Shown: piece by piece, positions 2,391 to 51,375 of the stretch | Position numbering within the stretch: the stretch's first letter is position 1 | Layout: every line of letters starts with the position of its first letter | NCBI RefSeq assembly: GCF_051622035.1 | Contig: NC_135366.1 | Coordinates: forward strand, 8,959,001 to 9,023,000 | DNA from: Arctopsyche grandis | Taxonomy: Eukaryota; Arthropoda; Insecta; Trichoptera; Hydropsychidae | DNA: 64,000 nucleotides | Direction of reading: 5' to 3' | Translations under genes and position numbers: made by a program | The notes under the pieces: generated by a model | What the model saw: only the letters and a program-made list of their open reading frames with translations | What the model was told of the DNA's origin: nothing | The model's database searches: none

Positions 2391-4162
2391 ATTGAAATAT
2401 TTACCAGTAAAATACAAGCTTTAAAAGAACAGATACTTCAATATCGGGTTACAATGTTGCTGATGTTGCGATGTCTATCTGTATTTAATAAAGCTATGTA
2501 GAATCCTTTGTTCACGGTAAGGGTAGTACTTTTTTCCATACATTTAAGAAACTGTCTTGTGTATTTCAATTTACATTCATTATTAAAGAAAAATCATTTT
2601 TCGTATATTATTATGCTTATTATATCTATTGTATACATAAAAAGTATTTGATAAATTATTTTTCATATATTCACTTTGCAAACAGCCTTTAGATTTACGA
2701 TCGCCGAATTCCAAACATAATAAAAGCTAATAAAGCTCATACAAAGTTGTCGAATGCACTTGCGGGTGCAGTGATAGATTCACCTCCCTACGTGAGCTTT
2801 CAAAATGAAAGTCAATCAATCATAAAAGTCGTATAAGGCAAGCAAAAAATAAAAAGATTTTTCTAACGATATAATAATAATGGATTTTGCACACACATTT
2901 ATGAGGCAATATTTGTTTGTAATAAAAATATATTAACCCACATATACGCCCATGAAATTTTATCGATATTTATTTTACACCACGCTTTACTATGTATAAT
3001 ACTCCGTCTCGAATAGATTTCACCACAGTAATAGTTTCAATTACTCAATAACCAATAAAATATAATACATACGTACTGTCATAATAATAGACGATTCACG
3101 ATAAACAACTTTGTATTTGCATCAGCGAAAATGATAAATATCTATAATATTCGTTGAAAATCTACCAACTCAAATACTTAAAATGGGATCAATGTACGCA
3201 ATCTATGTAGATCTAAAAAAATGCTTACATTTTAAGTGAATATAACGGGTAAAACCGCAAGTCGGAATCAGCACTCTTCCGCATAGGTCGTAAAGGCCCT
3301 CTGAAAACAATGGATCCGGAAAAAAGGCGTCCTTTATAACGGTTCCTTTTACCCCTCTCTTCCTCTTCAACCCTCTCACCTTCCTCCCATTTTACGGTCA
3401 TTATTTATTCCTTTCGATTTTAATATTAGATAATTCCCAAAGAAGAGGGTCCATTGTTGTGCCCATGCGAGGAAGGGAGCATAAAAAGGGAGAAAAGGTG
3501 GGGGCAATTACCGCAATCGCTTCGCAAACACGAGACCCTGTTAATCTTTTGAAATTTAGCGAAAATACTAGTGTTCGTATATTATTGTCGACAGCGTGCA
3601 CGACCGGATTATCCGGACTTTATGTGCAAAGAGTGCTTTAACTTTTAGAATCGGTCCATTCATTCGCCTTTGCACCCGTGCACAAGGCGCTACCATCGAA
3701 TGCTCGAATTCGCGCTAAAGAGTTTCCAAATGTAATAAGTTTTTCACAGTTTCGATTTTATATTTTTATTTTAAAAAATATAATAAAAATACATTAGATC
3801 CGCAATAATGGCTCCAAGCCTTTTTGAATTTATGTACTTATTTTAAAAGCAACAAAACCTCTACATTACATAATTCGTTACAAACCTTAAAAATAATAGT
3901 ACCAAAATTTTTAAATATTTTGTATTTTTTTCCATATAATGATGAAGTTAAGTTTCCTATTTTATTTTATTTCAATCAATCATGCATCATCTTAACAGAA
4001 TATTTCAAAGCGACGAGTGTGATATACAGATTAAGAATTATTAATAATATACATATGTATACAGGTATTACATCCATATATTTATATTAAACACGTCAAA
4101 ATATTTTACAGAAGTATTGCAAGTATTATACAATGCAAATACAAACATCGATTAAACATTAA
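2391..4162. other. Intergenic with a GC-richer island at about 3240-3720
   Basis: Mostly AT-rich without coding signal. The block 3240-3720 is clearly richer in G+C than its surroundings and carries no repeat I recognise. It is a candidate regulatory or conserved non-coding block by composition only. Confidence 0.4.
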
Positions 4163-4396
4163 ACGTCAGTCCGCAGAGACAATTGCTGAAAATCTCGAAA
4201 TTTTGCCATAAAAGGTTGCCAATTTGTTGGTACCGTTTCGATGCAAATATAAATTAATTGGCAAACTCTGATAGGAAATGACCAACCTGGACTCACACAT
4301 CCAAGGTCCGGCTAGCAGCGACCGGTGTGATTGAGCCCATGACCACTTTATTCGAAAGCATTGTATGCTAACCACCAGTCAATTCTGCTGGTTAAG
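4163..4396 (-). repeat. SINE (family S), reverse, 3'-truncated
   Basis: On the minus strand it shows the tRNA-like head with a GGNTCAATCAC-type B box, the GCTAGCCGGACC block, and the GTTTGCCAATT core followed by AAACGGTACC. The 3' hairpin tail is absent. Confidence 0.75.
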
Positions 4397-6049
4397 ATAA
4401 GATCATATCAACGTATAAGTACATATACGTATATAATACATGTATATTAATTATTAAAACATACATGTATTATATACGTATGTGTATAGAATGTAGCATT
4501 GATAGCCAACAATGAATAGAGCATGTATGTACATACATATAAATCTAACTAGACGGAAAAAAAATTAGGAAAATAAATAACACATTTCAAAATTTCCATA
4601 TTGGAAAACAAACAATCGGAAAAGGGCGAAGAGCAAATAATGACAGCGCGATTGAATATCGCTTTATCGCACGTCCGCACGATATATACGATAAAATTTT
4701 ACCAACCCTACTAGCCAGCGGATCCGAATGTAAAAACAATGCTTAATCAACGCAGAATTTTGATTACGATATTTATGTTTTTTTTTTTTGTACTTTTGAT
4801 GCGATGAAAGCGCTTGAAACGAATTGAAACCCACGAAATGCGAGAGATAAAAATGACATGTACATACATACATACGTGCAACTGTGAAAAACAGTTTTCC
4901 GCCGCATAGCGACCGCATACTCGAATTCCATTAACTCTAAATAAATAAAGTGAACCGTATGTGTGTGTGTGTGCGATTCGCTTTTCCTCTCTTGTTTAAA
5001 ATTAAAAGAATCGAACGTAGCGACGCGCACAATGAAACAGCGCGCTTTTCGCATATGCATGTACATATGTAGGTATGTGTATACATTTTGGTTTTTTTCA
5101 ACTGAAAAGCTATTATTAGTATTCAGAGTGTGCATTCGAACTCCCACACAATTAAAGTTCTCGCTGACAAAGTCCCGTACCACGTAGATTTATCGAGTTT
5201 AAGAATGAACGCAGTAGATAATTGCAGAATTGGGGCAATTCGACACACGCCGATGCTAGACATCCCTTAATTTTAATGAGGGTTGGCGGCGAAGCCCTCC
5301 GACATTGGCGGCGAAGCCCTCAGGCCCTCCGGATGACGTTGTCCTAATGAATAATGCCGAGTTTAGGTCTTATGAATGTTTTACATGCGAACCGCAGCTA
5401 GTAATTTCGTGCGGGATTTGCTCCAACGTTTGCATAGTGATGAAACGGCAGGCGTCTGGAAAACCGACACCCGTCAAAAACATATTCCATTTCAAGACAA
5501 ATTTCGTATCTATATATATTACAATACTAGCGAACGTATAGCCAATTTTAGTATACATATGTATGTATTATAGTCAGTGGTGTAGTCGGGCCAGGTCGCC
5601 GCCCTGGTACGTCTTTTTGAGCCAGGTCACCGCCCTGGGACTTTGATTGATATAAACATTGTTAAATTTGTAAATTTGCAGAATTTTATATTTACAATTC
5701 AGAGAAAGCTGATCAAATATGTAAATATTGATCATTTTATGTACATATAATATGGTGGCTGTCCTGTCATTTGATTTTTAGTGGGTTAACATTTCATCGA
5801 TTTAAAATTCGATCAACGTATGTAAATACATACATATATATAGTATATGTATGTATGTACAATAAAAAAGTCAATAACCATTTAATTCTTCCATTCATTT
5901 TTTCTTGGAAAAATGGTTCCATTCAAATGTTATCAAAGATTATTTCGAAAAATGTGTAATTAAGCGACAAAATTGTAACTTAATTACAAAAAATAATTTA
6001 ATTATCGATGTACATACAAATACATATATGCACACTGTGAATTATTGTA
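4397..6049. other. Intergenic with short GC-rich repeats
   Basis: AT-rich apart from two GC-rich spots. GGCGGCGAAGCCCTC occurs twice at about 5285-5325. A 17-18 bp unit, GCCAGGTC(G/A)CCGCCCTGG, occurs twice at about 5589-5638. Open frames at 5305-5573 show no family I recognise. They may be transposon remnants. Confidence 0.4.
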
Positions 6050-7521: not shown

Positions 7522-8745
7522 ATTATTAATATCTTAGCTAGGCTTTTCAGCAAATGCATCCAGAACCAAGCCATACCAGAAGGATGGAATAACGCAACTA
7601 TCATTTTAATACACAAAAAAGGCGACAAAAGCGATATCAAGAACTACCGACCCATTCGTTTACTTTCAGCGGTCTACAAGCTCTTCACGAATGTTATTAC
7701 AGAAAGGCTGAAGAATATCCTCGACGAGAACCAACCTATAGAACAGGCAGGATTTAGGGCAAATTTCAGCACAATGGACCACCTCCAAGTAGTTGGCGAA
7801 CTAATCGAACGCGCCAACGAATATCAACGGCCATTGTGCCTAGGTTTCGTCGATTATGAGAAAGCCTTCGATACAGTGAGCCACAATGCAGTACTTAACG
7901 CTCTACAAACACAGGGAGTACCGGAATCCTATGTGGGGCTGTTAGCTGCAATATATAAGAATGCCACAGCTTCGGTTAAAATTTTTTCAGGTACAGATAG
8001 ATTAGCATAGGAAAAGGAGTAAGACAAGGAGATACAATCTCGCCCAAGTTATTCAATGCGGTGCTTGAGGGAGTTTTCAGGAACTTGGAATGGGACAAAG
8101 CCGGAGTAAGCATCAACGGTCGCTTCTTGAGTCAGCTTCGGTTCGCAGACGATATAGTTTTAATAGCTCGTGATTCAGCTGACCTACTTAACAGACTAAT
8201 ACAGCTGGACAGGGAAAGTAGAAAAGTAGGATTAAAAATTAACGTAGATAAGACCAAACTAATGTTCAATAGTTATTGCATGCCTGATAGCATCCCATTA
8301 GATGATAAACCAGTAGAAGTAGTAAATAATTATTTATATTTAGGTCAAATAATTGACATGTCTGGTAGTAAAGAGGAAGAGATAAAGAGACGTATGAAAT
8401 TAGGATGGAGTGCATTTGGACGGATGAATGCTGTTTTTAAATCAAAAATGCCACTCTGCCTGAAGAAAAAGATCTTTGATCAATGCGTTTTGCCAGTGTT
8501 GACGTATGGATGTGAAACTTGGACACTGAACACCAAGATGCTACATAAAATCCAATGCACTCAAAGAAGTATGGAACGCTGTATGCTTGGCATAACGAGG
8601 AAAGACAGAAAGCGGAACACGTGGGTGAGAAGTATGACAAGAGTAGTGGACATAGTGGATAGAGTGAAGAGATTGAAATGACAATGGGCGGGTCACGTAG
8701 CTAGGAGGATGGACGAAAGGTGGACAAAAGAAATTTCAGTGAATC
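7522..8745 (+). pseudogene. Broken non-LTR reverse transcriptase
   Basis: This is the C-terminal half of a non-LTR retrotransposon endonuclease/reverse transcriptase, which copies element RNA into DNA at the target nick. Frame one (about 7522-8010) shows the NYRPIRLLSAVYKLF block and FVDYEKAFDTV, the first catalytic Asp motif. After a frameshift near 8000, frame two shows GVRQGDTISPKLF and the catalytic FADDIVLIA near 8146-8172. The VLPVLTYGCETWTL block, typical after the polymerase domain, follows. At 8679-8681 a TGA stands where the family has Trp (RLK-stop-QWAGHVARRMD). Endonuclease and N-terminal parts are missing, so the copy is 5'-truncated. With only one frameshift and one nonsense change seen, it is fairly young. 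The style resembles RTE/BovB-type enzymes, but the clade assignment is tentative. Confidence 0.9.
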
Positions 8746-8825: not shown

Positions 8826-9300
8826 GTATGGCTCAGTGGTAGCGTGTATTTTGAGCACCAAGTGATTAGGTGCTAAACATACACGCTAGGTTAGGTTAGG
8901 TTAGGTTCGACCCCGCTTGGGTGTTTGTGAGTCCAAGTCGATCGTTTCTTACCAGAGCTTGTCAATTTTATCTGATCATTGTTGAAACGTTTCCTTAAAA
9001 TTGGCAAAAAAATCATCCTACATGCTGTCACAAATCTTATGTATTATGTATCTACAATTTGTAAAAAATGATGTACAAGTCTAAAATCCATAGATGTCTC
9101 AATGGATTAATTCTATAATTAATTAATTAATTGTTTATTTCGTGTTCTTTAGCTTCTCGAAATACAGTGATTTGTGTAATAAAAATGCTGCATTGTTTGT
9201 AATTAATTGTCCAGGAAGGCGCATTGGGGTCTTCATGTCAAGCCTTTCTGGTATTCATATATCTACATATATACATACATATATAAAAATAAAATAAAAT
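8826..9300 (+). repeat. tRNA-derived SINE (family S), nearly complete
   Basis: The head has a tRNA-like A box (TGGCTCAGTGG, 8829-8839) and B box (GGTTCGACCCC, 8904-8914), the internal RNA polymerase III promoter. Four TTAGG units lie just before the B box at 8887-8907. The body holds the GTCAATTTTATCTGAT core and a GAAACG block. The 3' end is a hairpin with arms CCAGGAAGGC (9211-9220) and GCCTTTCTGG (9242-9251), followed by AT-rich repeats. Confidence 0.85.
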
Positions 9301-15511: not shown

Positions 15512-15948
15512 ATACCAGAAAGGCCCAACAAGTAACCCCAATGTGTCTTCCTGGCCAGAAACATTATAATACAAAGTAAATACATATCAATTAACTTCCA
15601 CAGAGACATCTATGGGCAAATTTGTACATTTACAACATTTTTTAAACAATTCAGCGAAATTCACTCATGTCAATTAACATCCACAAAGACATTTGTGGTC
15701 AAACATGTAGATTTGCAGCATTTTAGACAATTCAGCGTAATTCGAGATTTGCGAGAAAAAGGGTAAGGTTGCCAATTTGTTGGAACCGTTTCAATGAAAA
15801 TCAGATAAATTGGCAAACTCTGATAGTAAACAATCGACCTGGAGTCACAGATCCAAGGTATGGCCAGCAGAAACCAGTGGAGTTTGAACCCGTGACCAAT
15901 TTGTTCAAAGCATTATATGCTAACCACTAGTCTATTCTGCTGGAAAAT
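15512..15948 (-). repeat. tRNA-derived SINE (family S), reverse
   Basis: Read on the minus strand: tRNA-like head with a GGTTCAAACTC-type B box, the GCTGGCCATACC block, GTTTGCCAATTTATCTGATT and GAAACGGTTCC. A direct duplication of a CAATTAAC-containing internal segment follows. The 3' end is a hairpin with arms at 15545-15554 and 15515-15524. Confidence 0.8.
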
Positions 15949-23281: not shown

Positions 23282-24187
23282 CGAACCAAGTCCTCCATAA
23301 CTAACATAAAATTTGCCAGGTTATTCTCCAACCCCATGTCTTCTCGCTTGCTTTTCAACTCGCTTGTTAGAAGTAAGCTAGAGTATAATGCGATTGTGTG
23401 GAATCCGCATGAAGCAAACTAATCTCTCATTATCGAAAAAGTACAAAAAGCATTTCTTCGTTTTCTGTATAAGAAAGAGTTTGGGTATTACCCATATCTC
23501 TATTCTACTCCTTTCCTTTTGGGCATGCTTGGTTTAATTCCCTTTAACTTCGGAGAAACTTCTCGTTAATTCGTTTCGTTCTCCAGCTACTGCGTGGTAA
23601 TACGTCATGCCCGTTGTTGCTGGAACAATTGGGACTTTATGTACCTAATAATTATGTGCGTGGTAGATATCATAATTTAATGGTTGTACCTTCTTTTTCG
23701 AATGGCTCCTATACCTAGAGCTATTCGACTTATCAATGAAATCGTTGCAGCCGTCCCAGAATGCGATATTTTCCACCTCGGTGAGCGTAGATTATCGGAT
23801 ATTATTTTAACATATTTATCTGGTAACCTGCACTCATCATTACTATCTTAATTTGAATGTGATGTATGAGTGGAATCTTAATCTACTCTCTTCCATTTGG
23901 GCCTCGCTGTGATTTTATTTTTTATTCATATTTTGTTTTATTTATTTTACTTTTTCTTTCTCCTTTGTACATTTTTATGTACTATTTTAATTGTATTATT
24001 ATTTTCCTTTTGTTACTTTTTTATTATTATTTTATTTTACCATGTTTTCTGCTTTTTAATTTTTCTGTTTTTTACTTATTTTACTTGTATTTATATCTTT
24101 GTTAAATGAAGGCCATTGTGGCGCATTCGGTTCTTCCTGTAGTGCCACAATGGTCCAAAACTATTAATAATAAATAATAAATAATAA
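23282..24187 (+). pseudogene. Degenerate LINE: reverse-transcriptase end and 3' hairpin tail (family B)
   Basis: The translation SRLLFNSLVRSKLEYNAIVW followed by IIEKVQKAFLRFLYKK is the conserved region after the polymerase palm in CR1/Jockey-like LINEs. Stops at 23420-23422 and 23569-23571, and frame changes after that, show a dead copy. Further pieces are readable to about 23851. The 3' UTR is T-rich. It ends in a perfect 10-bp stem, CCATTGTGGC (24113-24122) and GCCACAATGG (24144-24153), then AATAAT-type repeats to about 24187. The loop of this hairpin matches the SINE tails in this window. Confidence 0.8.
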
Positions 24188-25756: not shown

Positions 25757-25810
25757 CCATTTTGGCGAATTAGGGATTCTTGTAATAACACAATGGTCCA
25801 AACATAATTA
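25757..25810 (+). repeat. Degenerate LINE family B 3' tail
   Basis: Arms CCATTTTG (from 25757) and CACAATGG (to 25796) enclose a loop resembling that of the hairpin at 24113-24153. The same TCCAAA context follows. The T-rich sequence before it also resembles the family B 3' UTR. Confidence 0.6.
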
Positions 25811-50905: not shown

Positions 50906-51375
50906 TAAGCCAGCAGCATAGGTCGGTCGTTAAGCTTCTGCTTAGCGTCGAGAAGGCGCCGGGTTCGATCCCAGGGCCGGGCCTCGAATGAAAATGAATT
51001 TTTCAGAGTATGGTGTTGGTTAGACCTGAATTTGTGATTTCAGGTTGATCGTTTCCTATCAGGGTTTGCCAATTTTCTCTGATTTCATTGTTGAAATGGT
51101 TCCCGGAAAAAATTGGCTAAAATCCCTCCTATACGATATGTCACCTATAATTTGTTATTAATTAATGTGTAATAAATAAGTTTGTGTACAAATTGATAGA
51201 TGTCTCATTAATTTGCGAGTTTTTCAGTGTCTCGTAATTCAGTGATTTATATAAAAATGCTGCATTGTAATTGTAATTTGTAATTGGCCAGGAAGGCGCA
51301 TTGGGGTTTACCTGTAAGGCCTTCCTGGTATATATGTAAAAAAATAAATAAAATAAATAAAAATAAAATAAAATA
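50906..51375 (+). repeat. tRNA-derived SINE (family S), nearly complete
   Basis: The head has B box GGTTCGATCCC (50962-50972). The body has GTTTGCCAATTTTCTCTGAT and GAAATGGTTCC. The 3' end has a perfect 10-bp hairpin, CCAGGAAGGC (51288-51297) and GCCTTCCTGG (51319-51328), then an AAATAAAATA-type tail. It lies just outside the Helitron/hAT nest. Confidence 0.85.

Follow-up and report, generated by a model that had tools for sequence, protein, structure and literature searches.

The window analysed here, a stretch of 64,000 nucleotides, holds a LINE and several SINEs that end in similar hairpins, which raises the question of whether the SINEs are copied by the enzyme of that LINE and which part of the hairpin, loop or stem, such an enzyme would recognize. 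The sequence-only reading of the window had proposed the window LINE as the SINE partner and the loop as the recognized part, and this interpretation is partly supported. We detected 3' hairpins that are common to two young LINEs (A and H) and to thousands of SINEs of this genome, probably an insect's, with a conserved top and a paired stem of varying sequence. The LINE of the window is LINE A, while the SINE tails are closer to LINE H.

Hairpins and elements in the window

The LINE tail and the three SINE tails named in the sequence-only reading are present as described, together with further features:

24113..24153, plus strand: 3' hairpin of a 5'-truncated LINE A copy, CCATTGTGGC, 21-nt loop, GCCACAATGG (sequence, scan, fold)
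23306..23848, plus strand: decayed C-terminal part of ORF2 of the same LINE A copy (tblastn)
25757..25796, plus strand: hairpin of the older LINE A2, with the LINE A stem and a 4-nt apical loop (scan; A2 genome count)
50908..51328, plus strand: young SINE of type B, with tRNA-like head, central domain and 3' hairpin (copy alignment)
51288..51328, plus strand: hairpin of this SINE B, CCAGGAAGGC/GCCTTCCTGG, with a 5-nt apical loop (sequence, scan)
9211..9251, plus strand: hairpin of an older SINE of type E (sequence, scan)
15515..15554, minus strand: hairpin of a type F SINE, with a 4-nt apical loop as in LINE H (sequence, scan)
3980..4022, minus strand: degenerate tail of a SINE of type M, 16 of 43 positions mismatched to copy L010, with the stem CACTCGTC/GGCGAGTG in better copies

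The window LINE A hairpin is followed by a TAA/TAAA repeat tail, and the coding remnant upstream is 66% identical in amino acids to ORF2 residues 788-973 of the LINE A copy L079. This copy is mutated, having C at 24128 and G at 24142 where the other A copies inspected have A at both positions; the loop of other LINE A copies is GCATTAGGTTCTTCCTGTAAT. The hairpin at 9211-9251 departs from copy L073 in one stem pair (G.T) and at two loop positions, and the 15515 copy (minus strand) is further altered in the uppermost part of the 5' arm and where the loop starts (GGAAGAC, then ACATT). The LINE hairpin at 25757-25796 and the old SINE near 4022 (minus strand) were absent from the sequence-only reading; the latter, a type M SINE at about 3960-4400, has a tRNA-like head unlike that of type B and an unrelated stem, and no partner LINE was found for it.

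The SINE B head contains GGTTCGATCCC, which we take to be box B, in the aligned copies as judged by eye; a central domain is visible, and the tail is common to LINE H. ARAGORN detected no tRNA gene in the window. Identity over 121 bp between the window copy and two others points to a young SINE, and a search for target site duplications (29 SINE copies) gave mostly 5-9-base repeats. The SINE superfamily seems dense in the window: its central domain was matched 18 times in a fuzzy search that allowed 4 edits in 18 bases and had no control, so that some matches are surely chance, for example at 955, 8950, 15828 (minus strand) and 51055. Weak tblastn matches to LINE ORF2 at 7543-7950 (29%) and 30158-29931 (32%) represent other old LINEs.

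Structure and abundance of the hairpin

RNAfold folded the family tails into a lower stem that leads, through an internal loop, to a short upper stem and an apical loop, with slight shifts from one family to another. The lower stem comprises 10-11 bp below the structured top (RNAfold, RNAalifold), and RNAalifold, run on 27 rows with no structure supplied, predicts 13 of the 14 pairs of the proposed structure. The loop of the sequence-only reading is resolved into an internal loop (GCAT or GCTT, that is GCWT, opposite TNAN), an upper stem (TRGG/CCTG) and an apical loop of 4-5 nt. The apical loop is TTCTT in LINE A, TTTA in LINE H, GTTTA, ATTTA, GTCTA or GTCTT in the 5-nt SINEs, GACT or GATT in A2, ACAA in K and GCGA in M.

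The loop-plus-closing-pairs pattern GGCGCATTNGGNTNTNCCTGTAANGCC has 4626 exact matches in the genome (475,669,232 bases in 189 contigs, with contigs C1-C13 of 29.5-42.7 Mb) and its reversed control 0; with the 5' arm added, 4389 matches were obtained. Among 100 matches listed with the 5' arm, all on C1, only two stems and their single-base variants occur: CCATTGTGGC, which goes with the top AGG and marks LINE A, and CCAGGAAGGC, which goes with the top GGG. Of 20 fetched loci with the GGG form, 19 carry the common SINE body in the approximately 340 bases upstream; the remaining one, L075, has the 3' part of the body only. Scans with 41-nt tails (up to 14 mismatches) of 342,846 bases of loci chosen for containing these repeats, some of them overlapping, gave 118 matches with 79 distinct strings, and 0 for the reversed sequence. 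The tail likeness is not due to chance, as both comparisons demonstrate, and the loop likeness persists across the many copies compared.

The hairpin pattern had no match in viral and prokaryote collections and ORF2 had none in phages, both as expected. A literature search with incomplete journal coverage led to no recognized description of this hairpin or of these elements. A free inverted-repeat scan was too noisy for use.

LINE A and its older relative

The LINE A copies are young, since 19 of the 138 scored ORF2 C-termini share a frame of exactly 989 aa. L079, the one 989-aa-frame copy read, contains the end of ORF1 followed by an ORF2 of 973 aa from the first start codon, with Exo_endo_phos (6.7e-7) and RVT_1 (1.6e-27) domains, and then the hairpin (4141-4181) and TAAA repeats. 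LINE A is an APE-type non-LTR retrotransposon by its ORF2 with endonuclease and reverse transcriptase (RT), and LINE copies with a long open frame for both do bear the tail, a point that the sequence-only reading had listed for checking.

LINE A2, an older relative with the same stem, accounts for 173 genome matches (degenerate pattern). In L050 some 290 bases separate an A2 hairpin from the preceding ORF2 end, which is 66-79% identical to A, in pieces. At G000:C4:34396671-34397986 (minus strand) five A2 hairpins stand in a row 305-328 bases apart, so that a LINE tail forms a tandem or satellite-like array there.

LINE H

At first no LINE with the SINE stem was retrieved (0 matches), a misleading outcome of patterns that required 5 nt in the apical loop and ruled out the bases just before the H hairpin. 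When the apical loop was set to 4 nt, 921 genome matches were obtained, SINEs among them; eight of these places were fetched, four being SINEs and four (L080, L082, L083 and L087) having no SINE body, with CTTTGG or TATTTGG preceding the hairpin. An ORF2 C-terminus was detected in L098, upstream of L080, and a genome search with it gave 150 scored copies, 13 of them in a frame of exactly 979 aa. One tail was fetched among these 13 copies (L099), and it reads CCAGGAAGGT, GCATTGGGTTTACCTGTTAG, GCCTTCTTGG; L100, next to a copy with a 549-aa frame, has the same tail, and no hairpin was found in the 608 bases downstream of an H-like C-terminus in L101, which gives a hairpin in two of the three tails fetched downstream of H-like C-termini. 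The stem of the LINE H tail (CCAGGAAGGY/GCCTTCTTGG) departs from that of the SINEs by no more than two wobble changes. The RT of the L099 copy, read in part, is 46-47% identical to that of A (47% by BLAST), with YADD and no stops; the domain reading of H covers the RT part only. By its exact 979-aa frames, the L099 and L100 tails and this RT identity, H is a second young LINE, not seen in the window, that carries the SINE stem.

On C1, 5 of the 19 H C-termini have a 4-nt-loop hairpin within 2.5 kb downstream (random mean 0.04), a count that uses all 74 C1 hairpin places and a pattern demanding GGC, whereas L099 and L100 have GGT. Ten probes about 850-1000 bases upstream of 4-nt-loop hairpins contained no recognizable LINE coding sequence, and one of them was a SINE.

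In L082 (373-649, minus strand) a LINE endonuclease piece is joined directly to the H 3' UTR and may represent an internal deletion, or another LINE or nested insertion. Three H-type hairpins lie on one strand exactly 3838 bases apart (G000:C2:5143800, 5147638 and 5151476), perhaps as a tandem array holding the H tail; the one fetched (L083) adjoins what we take, by its motif, to be a Tc1-like transposase.

Other stems and LINEs with other ends

A free-stem scan of the fetched loci (120 matches, 0 for the reversed sequence) revealed LINE K and SINE M. LINE K, one old copy (L021), has an ORF2 end 59% identical to H over 46 residues and the stem TCACATTGAC/GTCTCTGTGG; SINE M, with the stem TGCACTCGTC/GGCGAGTGTT, has five copies in the fetched loci besides the poor one in the window. 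Searches for other stems had given 2 places, and 19 with tops as in A or the SINEs or one base off, and had missed K and M, whose top begins with GCTTT.

L045 and L054, two further LINEs of the fetched loci that have an RT and show 29-38% identity to A, terminate in A/T repeats and lack such a hairpin in the 3' sequence examined, so that LINEs of this genome can dispense with it. An RT quartet joins A and H against L045 and L054 (support 0.995 and 100); it is unrooted and silent on gain versus loss of the hairpin, and comprises only LINEs of this genome, with no named references.

Covariation of the stem

The sequence-only reading had described a shared loop with stems that differ by paired changes, and four adjacent stem pairs (columns 6-9) indeed distinguish LINE A from the SINEs, each of them compensated in the family forms. 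The covariation test that it called for had two outcomes. With LINE K and SINE M included, two-sided changes occur at 7 of 10 stem pairs (8 of 14 pairs overall); in 26 distinct rows, from an alignment of 27 hand-chosen rows, 92.6% of the cells are paired, two-sided changes fill 53 cells against 16.8 (sd 3.1) in shuffles, and covariation is 0.494 against at most 0.176 when slid, the K and M rows (K being one old copy) coming from a scan that required a paired stem and is biased towards pairing. Without K and M, two-sided changes are found at four pairs only (28 cells, 11.1 expected), and the numbers of two-sided pairs and of pair types are no higher than in shuffles; these changes amount to one split of A versus H and the SINEs, perhaps one event.

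Comparison of SINE tails with LINE tails

LINE A, the window LINE proposed as the SINE partner, was dropped as the best-matching LINE once LINE H was found; a better match to another LINE is an outcome that the sequence-only reading had itself named as refuting. In 11 SINE tails of types B-G, the distance is 2-9 of 41 columns to the H copy L099 and 12-19 to A, and the totals favor H in 11 of 11 rows. Over the 20 stem columns these rows differ in 1-4 from the nearer H copy (L099 or L080) and in 7-10 from A, and over the 21 columns of the top in 0-6 and 3-10, respectively. The loop of SINE copy L081 is that of LINE H in 20 of 20 bases, and the H tail matches the window at 51278-51370 (93 bp at 87%). 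Among the A, A2, H and K tails read, H matches best, suggesting H and not A as the partner of these SINEs. The three SINE M rows are 23-26 columns from both A and H and are nearest to K (19-20).

Discussion

From the hairpin and its families, the long open frames, the compensation in the stem and the best match of H among the LINE tails read, we consider it probable that the hairpin is the 3' recognition element of stringent-type LINEs, and that the SINEs took their tail from an H-type LINE and borrow its enzyme; binding, the part that is read and present-day mobilization are inferred. LINEs A, A2, H and K, which end in short A/T-rich repeats, would carry the hairpin as this element; the ORF2 protein most likely binds it in the LINE RNA and would start target-primed reverse transcription at the repeat tail. 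The protein would read the sequence of the top (internal loop and short upper helix) and mainly the helical form of the lower stem, which would let stems diverge between families through compensatory changes under a conserved top. The SINEs would have acquired a copy of the tail from an H-type LINE and could thus borrow its enzyme. The hairpin is present and conserved; in stringent-type LINEs, to which A and H may belong, a 3' stem-loop of their own is needed for retrotransposition. The earlier suggestion that the loop, not the stem, is recognized cannot be read from the SINE/H pair, because both parts are common to the two, and draws its support from the comparison between LINE families. A basic linker between endonuclease and RT is present in A and H and also in the hairpin-less L045, so the linker alone does not explain hairpin specificity.

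LINE A could instead be the present partner of the 5-nt-loop SINEs, which would have kept an H-type stem and taken on an A-like loop; we regard this as unlikely. LINE A is young; its apical loop of 5 nt and its 21-nt top recur in SINE types B-E and G (51288 and 9211 among them), the apical loop of H being 4 nt; and the loop decides in ZfL2 according to the portions of the source available (PMC4176376). Two old SINEs of type E are nearer to A in the loop, L073 (3 columns from A, 5 from H) and the window copy at 9211 (5 and 6), yet both are nearer to H in the stem and overall. The whole SINE B hairpin is 3-4 of 41 columns from H and 13 from A. The hairpin is followed by GGTA in SINE B, by GGTG in H and by GGTC in A, and the tail repeats of the SINEs are more like those of H: A-runs of at least 4 make up 44% of 119 units in SINEs (27 tails), 10% of 115 units in A (20 tails) and 77% of 9 units in H (2 tails only).

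Plain common descent of the LINE tails, loop and stem, without selection, would agree with the near-identical stems within the SINE and H lineages, by which most rows are related by descent, and with the single split that remains when K and M are left out. We find it improbable, as stem changes between lineages are mostly compensated, A, H, K and M all retain the top, and LINEs here can do without the hairpin. Another RNA role (stability, export or 3' processing), with an RT that does not read the hairpin, seems equally improbable; an RNA-stability element could be common to SINE and LINE RNAs, but the hairpin sits just before the repeat tail, the expected start of reverse transcription, and such hairpins have a known role in ZfL2, as described in the sections available of PMC4176376.

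The hairpin as 3' recognition element would work as in the known stringent LINE/SINE pairs. As in UnaL2/UnaSINE1 and the L2-clade fish elements ZfL2-1 and ZfL2-2, a 3' stem-loop before short repeats is common to LINE and SINE (PMC4176376; UnaSINE pairing PMC3747384, both in the parts available); unlike in these, the hairpin here has two helices with an internal loop and is known from sequence alone, and one genome combines several LINE families with two or more types of SINE tail. For the ZfL2 LINEs the available text describes specific reading of the loop and general reading of the stem by the region between endonuclease and RT, the loop being decisive and the stem replaceable (PMC4176376). 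Monocot L1-clade LINEs and SINEs are described, in the portions available, with a common 3' hairpin that has compensatory stem changes and conserved loop nucleotides, as here (PMC3747384); the plant elements belong to the L1 clade and keep other letters, unlike the APE-type LINE with TAA/TAAA/TAAAA repeats. The moth pairs HaSE1/HaRTE1.1 and PxSE5/PxLINE1.1 comprise insect tRNA- or 5S-derived SINEs with a LINE-derived tail, as far as the available parts describe them (PMC3272025, PMC8010984), and the present SINEs with their tRNA-like head may be of this sort; the words 'stem-loop' and 'hairpin' occur 0 times in the main texts, and the parts examined describe no covariation, unlike here (PMC3272025, PMC8010984). 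The present case fits the ZfL2 and plant hairpin pattern, with binding and mobilization as presumed steps.

We further suggest, as a speculation that is rather doubtful at present, that the common hairpin top is a docking code for LINEs with stems diverged past recognition, and that SINEs switch enzymes by small changes of the apical loop, from 4 to 5 nt, with the old stem retained. If so, the 5-nt SINEs, with their H-type stem and A-like loop, would bear the mark of a switch between LINE enzymes. To our knowledge, the part of a 3' hairpin that is read by the LINE protein has been tested in few systems. Here one genome has two young LINEs with long open frames and several SINE types on one conserved top, with at least three clearly different stem sequences (A, H/SINE and M, and K in one old copy), and these natural swaps allow tests of loop versus stem recognition and of partner switching.
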